This document shows, piece by piece, positions 60,131-60,286 of a DNA stretch of 64,000 bases (within the stretch, counting starts at the first letter, position 1; every line of letters begins with the position of its first letter). This stretch comes from Hyphomicrobiales bacterium (GTDB taxonomy: Bacteria; Pseudomonadota; Alphaproteobacteria; Rhizobiales; Xanthobacteraceae): NCBI GenBank assembly GCA_021732215.1, contig JAKFVL010000008.1:124001-188000 (forward strand). Reading direction: 5' to 3'. A program made the position numbers and the translations under genes. The notes under the pieces were generated by a model, which ran no database searches, was not told the origin of the DNA, and saw nothing but the letters and a program-made list of their open reading frames with translations.

Positions 60131-60180
60131 TTTGACATTCGCCCCTTATCTGTCCGGTCTTTCGTCAGGCGAATGTCAAA
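60131..60180. repeat. Palindrome 1 in the ctaC-ctaD gap
   Basis: Perfect 13-bp arms TTTGACATTCGCC (60131-60143) and GGCGAATGTCAAA (60168-60180) are separated by a 24-base loop. It shares the core ACATTCGC with the second palindrome. Confidence 0.85.
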
Positions 60181-60208
60181 CTCAAAGCTCTACTAGATAC
60201 CCATAATT

Positions 60209-60286
60209 GCTGGTGTTCTTTTGATTCCAACATTCGCACCAGAATTCGCAGCAACCTCATGCGAATGTTAGAATCAAACCACCAGC
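60209..60286. repeat. Palindrome 2 in the ctaC-ctaD gap
   Basis: The arm GCTGGTG...TTTGATTCCAACATTCGCA (60209-60238) faces TGCGAATGTTAGAATCAAA...CACCAGC (60260-60286). Stems of 10, 8 and 7 bp are interrupted only by a C-A mismatch and a small bulge. Confidence 0.85.

Follow-up and report, generated by a model that had tools for sequence, protein, structure and literature searches.

A dispersed two-hairpin element in the ctaC-ctaD gap of a Hyphomicrobiales genome and its probable history of mobility

Introduction

CIR elements were reportedly described by Chen and Shapiro in 2003 from Caulobacter and further alphaproteobacteria, and the RIME elements of Rhizobium, reportedly described by Osteras (1995), are short intergenic mosaic repeats with palindromes that occur in the Rhizobiales. 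The element treated here lies between the cytochrome oxidase genes ctaC and ctaD of a Hyphomicrobiales bacterium, in a stretch of 64,000 nucleotides that was analysed as a whole (the window), and it resembles RIME in being a short intergenic palindromic repeat in the Rhizobiales.

According to a review (PMC2229807), CIR elements consist of two arms and a linker, are about 110 bp long and carry GANTC at or near the loop. Measured against that account, the present element is CIR-like in being intergenic, dispersed and alphaproteobacterial, in having two inverted-repeat arms with a linker, in the GANTC within an arm and in the TA at its termini. On the other hand, it is 168 bp long, and its GANTC is found in the middle of the stem of one hairpin (T) rather than at the loop, with both arms lacking the motif in 32 of 75 copies. 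As the size and the placement of GANTC differ and the comparison is by description only, membership in the CIR family is not claimed. The element is placed among the small, dispersed intergenic elements with two hairpins that are known from alphaproteobacteria, of which CIR and RIME are, by description, the closest kinds.

Two other groups of small elements are also similar in part. Miniature elements of the MITE type (Correia/NEMIS, ERIC) share with the present element a small size, the lack of a transposase gene, a presence that differs between relatives, predicted stem-loops in transcripts and imperfect outer inverted repeats, whereas the present element has two separate hairpins, and no partner element was found in the three genomes scanned. 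REP and BIME repeats, as presented in PMC3733652, likewise combine head-to-head bulged hairpins with a multicopy, intergenic distribution. However, the present element lacks the GTAG or CGTC tag of those repeats, has hairpins of 76-79 nt with CTAG-like ends instead of 20-40 bp and, unlike the REP/BIME-RAYT systems, is not accompanied by a detectable Y1 transposase (PF01797) in its own genome. No prior description of the element was found in the CIR, RIME, REP and MITE literature searched, which did not include the original CIR and RIME papers, and one may exist elsewhere.

The element and its place in the oxidase gene pair

The gap between ctaC and ctaD covers positions 60083-60327 (245 bases), and both genes are encoded on the minus strand. 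The gene for cytochrome oxidase subunit II, ctaC (60328-61206, minus strand; COX2 by Pfam), is upstream of the element and ends 42 nt before it, and ctaD, encoding subunit I (58454-60082, minus strand; COX1 by Pfam), has its start codon 35 nt past the element, a distance that leaves the presumed ribosome-binding region of ctaD uninterrupted.

An earlier note on this DNA had described two palindromes in the gap, and both are real: the predicted fold of 60084-60327 (244 nt) reaches -104.1 kcal/mol, while shuffled versions average -70.1 (z -7.6), and none of 200 shuffles was as stable. The perfect 13-bp stem (60131-60143 with 60168-60180) contains no mismatch, and the arms of the long composite stem, which could likewise be recovered, are 19 nt long and 95% complementary. 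The four octamer copies reported for the gap could also be located, as ACATTCGC, within 60135-60268; the octamer occurs nine times in the whole window, where shuffles gave a mean of 4.4 and reached nine in 4 of 100 cases. While the hairpins themselves were borne out, their separateness was not, since they are parts of a single unit of 168 bp (60118-60285, minus strand) that is delimited by a 17-copy alignment, blastn and covariance-model matches, composition and fold. The palindromes are thus two halves of one non-coding dispersed element, with a G+C content of 45% compared with 62% in the window.

On the minus strand, which is the coding strand of ctaC and ctaD, hairpin T precedes hairpin S. 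Hairpin T (60210-60285, minus strand, 76 nt) starts with CTGG at 60285 and finishes with CCAG at 60210; its layout is a CTAG-like end, GGTCCGATTCTAACATTCGC, a loop and an inner arm that is about three bases longer, and its arms contain GATTC and GAATC, respectively, both of which are GANTC. A spacer of 13 nt (60197-60209) leads to hairpin S (60118-60196, minus strand, 79 nt), which is laid out as GGAG..GGATTTGACATTCGC in the orientation opposite to T and again has extra bases in the inner arm. The perfect 13-bp stem is contained in S, and the extent that had been given for this first structure has to be enlarged, since S runs over 60118-60196 with CTAG at both ends. The two hairpins have the ACATTCGC core and CTAG-like ends in common, and their predicted transcript folds amount to -38.9 and -37.9 kcal/mol. 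In the consensus, 18 of 25 positions agree between the outer arms, which form imperfect terminal inverted repeats. The element is short and multicopy (168 bp, 46 places), and it is too small for a transposase gene.

When the whole window was searched with Rfam at the gathering score, only two tRNAs were detected and no family in the region of the element. At E up to 1, two microRNA models were returned for 60000-60400, far under their cut-offs, and were taken as chance. A scan of 57300-61500 for promoters and terminators gave two promoter-like and four terminator-like sites (shuffled means 1.1 and 3.3), and one of the promoter-like sites falls inside the element on the plus strand. Beyond ctaC, a frame at 61488-62024 corresponds to the start of PF00465, iron-containing alcohol dehydrogenase (positions 1-141 of 168), and is apparently shortened; it is likely a gene remnant.

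Copies within the genome and across genomes

A blastn search with 60110-60300 against the own genome (4.2 Mb, 32 contigs) yielded 36 matches at E up to 1, some of which are second-strand matches to single hairpins. Nineteen distinct places were extracted with their flanks, and T and S follow each other in the same order at all of them. The length is nearly constant in 17 of these copies (169-174 bp including margins), which constitute the alignment A1; the two copies of odd length, one without part of T (L013) and one with a spacer about 20 bases longer (L019), were excluded from it. With a covariance model of 172 positions and 48 pairs, 83 matches at no fewer than 46 distinct places were obtained in the own genome (150 of 791 candidates scored), and 61 matches at 41 places in a congener (G001). 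Many of the lower-scoring copies have another stem sequence, with cores such as GTTTCCGAAGTTCG and GATCTGAAGTTCC, and the same two hairpins, so that a head-to-head hairpin pair, CTAG-like arm ends and an excess of about three bases in each inner arm are kept across divergent subfamilies. In genome G025, chimeras that combine hairpins from different subfamilies were also found.

The earlier note had named a dispersed repeat family as its last alternative, and this proved right, as the genome contains 46 copies or more, some complete and some partial. The element looks like a known type of genome repeat rather than a switch built for the oxidase genes. The stems are scattered genome-wide, and matches were found in 20 of 61 genomes (the own genome and 60 relatives). 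All 20 are among the 37 genomes of the same family (E 0.001), and the 24 that represent further families of the order contained no copy under the stricter filters applied there. Across the class, 11 of 288 other genomes matched, or 12 of 289 counting the own genome (E 1e-6); of 11 loci displayed for other families in the class, 10 are similar in look, and the remaining one (L290) has shorter, different hairpins.

The 22-base T arm occurs in at least 119 stretches of named records, and the 80 matches listed include Afipia, Nitrobacter winogradskyi, Rhodoplanes, Pseudolabrys and Bradyrhizobium, although the organism titles of some metagenome-assembled genomes (MAGs) look mislabelled. A tally of GANTC among named records (67 of 74) was discarded because the records had been chosen by a pattern containing GATTC. 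When one relative's copy served as the query, seven plasmid records were matched; three were matched by its first 42 bases, and no transposase was annotated beneath the matched stretches. No phage record was matched by that relative's copy.

Using a crude GC-frame predictor, 106 copies (three G001 loci truncated at contig ends were left out) were assigned to 57 tandem, 29 divergent and 14 convergent contexts, with 2 in frame and 4 unclear; some of these calls are doubtful, as L116 was called divergent and is tandem by eye, and the orthologous L036 and L109 were called differently. A stricter caller assigned 30 tandem, 13 divergent and 1 convergent context among 44 callable copies and left 62 uncalled, and all 44 agree with the crude calls. 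Mixed gene contexts of this kind correspond neither to a terminator pattern nor to that of one regulatory role.

Comparison with relatives and evidence of mobility

CtaC was present in 58 of the 61 genomes searched. Among 30 ctaC-ctaD loci examined, the element was found in that of its own genome only and was absent from the other 29. The ctaC-ctaD gap of congener G001 measures 73 bp versus 245 here; on the minus strand, the own genome reads GGCGAACCG, the element and CGTTCAACG, and G001 reads GACGAACCGCAAGGTTCAACG at the same site. Most likely, the element entered the gap once. A synteny comparison of the two congeners revealed 3 copies common to both and 11 present in one only, with differences in both directions. 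By eye, the 11 unshared copies were classed as 5 clean empty sites (including ctaC-ctaD), 4 cases with altered flanks, 1 partial deletion in G001 and 1 nested copy. Taken together, the multicopy spread and the differences in presence and absence support mobility.

One of the common copies (C1:347562 in the own genome) has kept 166 of 171 bases, compared with 264 of 300 and 284 of 300 in its flanks, and from this better preservation some copies could be useful. The other two, with 148 of 170 and 133 of 144 bases, are not clearly better kept than their flanks.

The ends of the element were also examined for traces of its insertion. Empty sites read CTTG, TTGG, CTTA and CAAG by eye, as against CTAG-like ends at filled sites, which would fit a 4-bp target. 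Among 89 copies, the outer 4-mer agrees with the inner copy of its own hairpin at 92% identity (82-84% expected; 0 of 2000 shuffles), and with the other end at 84.0% against 82.2% (29 of 2000 shuffles). Since the CTAG-like 4-mer covaries with the inner copy in the same hairpin, a target duplication is ambiguous.

An autonomous partner was sought by an outer-arm scan of three genomes and an inspection of six stray-arm loci, and no gene enclosed by T and S arms that face inward was found there; the stray outer arms proved to be only short, truncated or chimeric copies. A Y1 transposase (PF01797, E 1e-5) was detected in 8 of the 61 genomes and in none of three copy-rich ones, namely the own genome (G000, 97% complete), G001 and G025.

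Covariation between the hairpin arms

In the A1 alignment, 96.4% of cells pair, and 24 of the 48 pairs are altered on both sides, a number that none of 500 shuffles equalled. In two larger sets, whose alignments were fitted to the structure and in which double-change cells are copy counts rather than independent events, the 75 distinct copies (out of 147 matches) contain 616 such cells, 266 of transversion type, along with 53 G-U, 64 A-C and 48 other mismatches, and the 74 named copies (the full-length ones out of 80 distinct matches) contain 186, 62 of transversion type, along with 27 G-U, 29 A-C and 50 others. Moreover, by eye, each stem foot of one copy common to both congeners carries a joint change, and one of these changes is a double transversion.

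Double changes of the transversion type cannot proceed by way of a G-U wobble, and if pairing in RNA were selected, G-U would be expected to exceed A-C on the transcript strand. The 57 copies in tandem contexts (21 sense and 36 antisense, on predicted transcript strands) contain 55 G-U and 63 A-C, and the 30 tandem contexts under stricter gene calling contain 28 and 29, respectively. The ctaC-ctaD copy, which is 1 of 17 copies tabulated, has 5 G-U, 0 A-C and 1 other mismatch on its transcript strand, the pattern that RNA selection at the locus would give. Of the compensatory changes that the earlier note had proposed to look for, the covariation of the arms was observed, but an RNA-type G-U bias over many copies was not. 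The joint changes, often transversions, together with the lack of a G-U excess, favour copying of arms or structure at the DNA level over selection on RNA as the process that keeps the arms matched. In a published study (PMC8794818), template switching in replication is presented as a route that both creates and maintains hairpin arms, including joint changes.

Origin and possible roles

It is probable that the palindromes between ctaC and ctaD represent one copy of a historically mobile non-coding element that was inserted once, whose arms are kept matched by DNA processes and whose effect on the mRNA is incidental. The single insertion may have been the work of a trans-acting enzyme that recognised the hairpins or the ends of the arms. 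Strand-switch copying between arms would then alter both arms together, so that complementarity persists, and selection on a DNA hairpin or cruciform for mobility possibly contributes to the same outcome. The ctaC-ctaD message would carry two stable stem-loops as a by-product, and any shift in the ctaC:ctaD ratio or in how the mRNA is processed would be incidental. Cutting of the message by RNase III at the element is a fair guess by analogy with the Correia elements, for which such cutting is reported (PMC10969869).

The earlier note had considered protection of ctaC, attenuation of ctaD or binding of a regulator. That a cis-acting RNA structure evolved for the operon, either with such shielding or attenuation or with an RNase III cut that sets the subunit ratio, is unlikely: the stability of both predicted transcript stems, the G-U pairs without A-C in this copy and the 42 and 35 nt left to the neighbouring genes would suit it, but the element is missing at 29 of 30 ctaC-ctaD loci (the congener's included), its copies occupy tandem, divergent and convergent contexts, G-U is not in excess over all copies, and the region has no Rfam family at the gathering score. 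The regulatory proposal thus found no support as a function evolved for the operon. A CIR-type element linked to CcrM, in which GANTC in hairpin T would be a functional core read by methylation-dependent regulators, is doubtful. Of 75 copies, 40 do carry GANTC at the corresponding position in the left arm of T and 43 carry it in one arm or both; these copies belong to several subfamilies. Both T arms of the ctaC-ctaD copy have it as well, and a CcrM-like methylase is encoded in the genome (PF01555 plus RAMA; 611 bits with the NCBIfam CcrM model, below its cut-off of 830); against this stand the 32 copies without the motif in either arm, the GTTTC found in the left arm of 16 of the 75 and the mid-stem position away from the loop.

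Mobilisation of a REP/BIME-like element by a Y1 transposase (IS200/IS605 or RAYT) appears quite improbable. The opposed, paired hairpins with asymmetric bulges recall the anatomy of BIMEs, and PF01797 was matched in 3 of 6 genomes with at least 40 model matches (G004, G009 and G033) as against 5 of 55 others (Fisher p 0.025, with the grouping picked after the data were seen). However, the copy-rich own genome, G001 and G025 have no such match, presence of the element is unlinked to Y1 (3 of 20 genomes with it and 5 of 41 without, p 1), only one of nine Y1 loci includes the element, on a single side, and the length, ends and missing tag of the hairpins depart from REP. That one locus is in G033 (L068:1185-1887, C73), where a 143-codon IS200-like Y1 gene, flanked on each side by an end hairpin that belongs to it, directly abuts a copy (L068:1185-1353); the gene is regarded as an insertion sequence beside a copy and not its mobiliser, and a link to mobility may exist. 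Two separate insertions of a single-hairpin repeat, as in the note's suggestion that a repeat had inserted twice, can hardly be credited. The ACATTCGC core and CTAG-like ends of both T and S, as well as the chimeric pairs, from which hairpins are exchangeable as modules, would agree with it, but the fixed order of T and S at all 19 extracted places and the one size difference from the congener's gap, which is smaller by about one element, argue against it.

Beyond the preferred reading of a single insertion with arms maintained at the DNA level, a wider and more tentative one may be considered, which we hold possible without expecting it to be correct. The element might belong to an alphaproteobacterial mobile superfamily that conserves a folded DNA shape and not a sequence, the arms being re-templated on one another time and again, the modules exchanged among subfamilies and the extruded single strand recognised by an enzyme. 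The conserved shape would in that case comprise the head-to-head hairpins, the roughly three extra bases of the inner arms and the CTAG-like ends on all arms.

These results call for caution in reading palindromes in an operon as regulatory before a genome-wide check has been made. Covariation by itself cannot separate DNA-level copying from RNA-level compensation, and the many copies, in both orientations and with empty sites in a congener, provide a natural case in which the two can be told apart. In addition, the polymorphic sites make the question of a mobiliser of twin hairpins testable.

Short, nested and repeated insertions

Several copies show unusual forms. A short form composed of the outer T arm and the outer S arm was found in some named records, in the own genome and in G025; L142, L144, L181, L191 and L194, from MAGs titled Rhodospirillaceae, have only these two arms. 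In G001, overlapping model matches about 90 bases apart lie beside a stem of another subfamily (L262:11796-12126, corresponding to G001:C14:29795-30125), and this is a nested or tandem hairpin cluster.

Another copy in G001 (L266:17868-18038) is a clean insertion directly before a gene that appears to be pth, at a place where the own genome has a 3-nt space. In G025, a chimeric copy (L277, from 3270 onward) is likewise situated directly before a gene similar to that at L266, and the pth-like site is possibly a repeated target in two genera.
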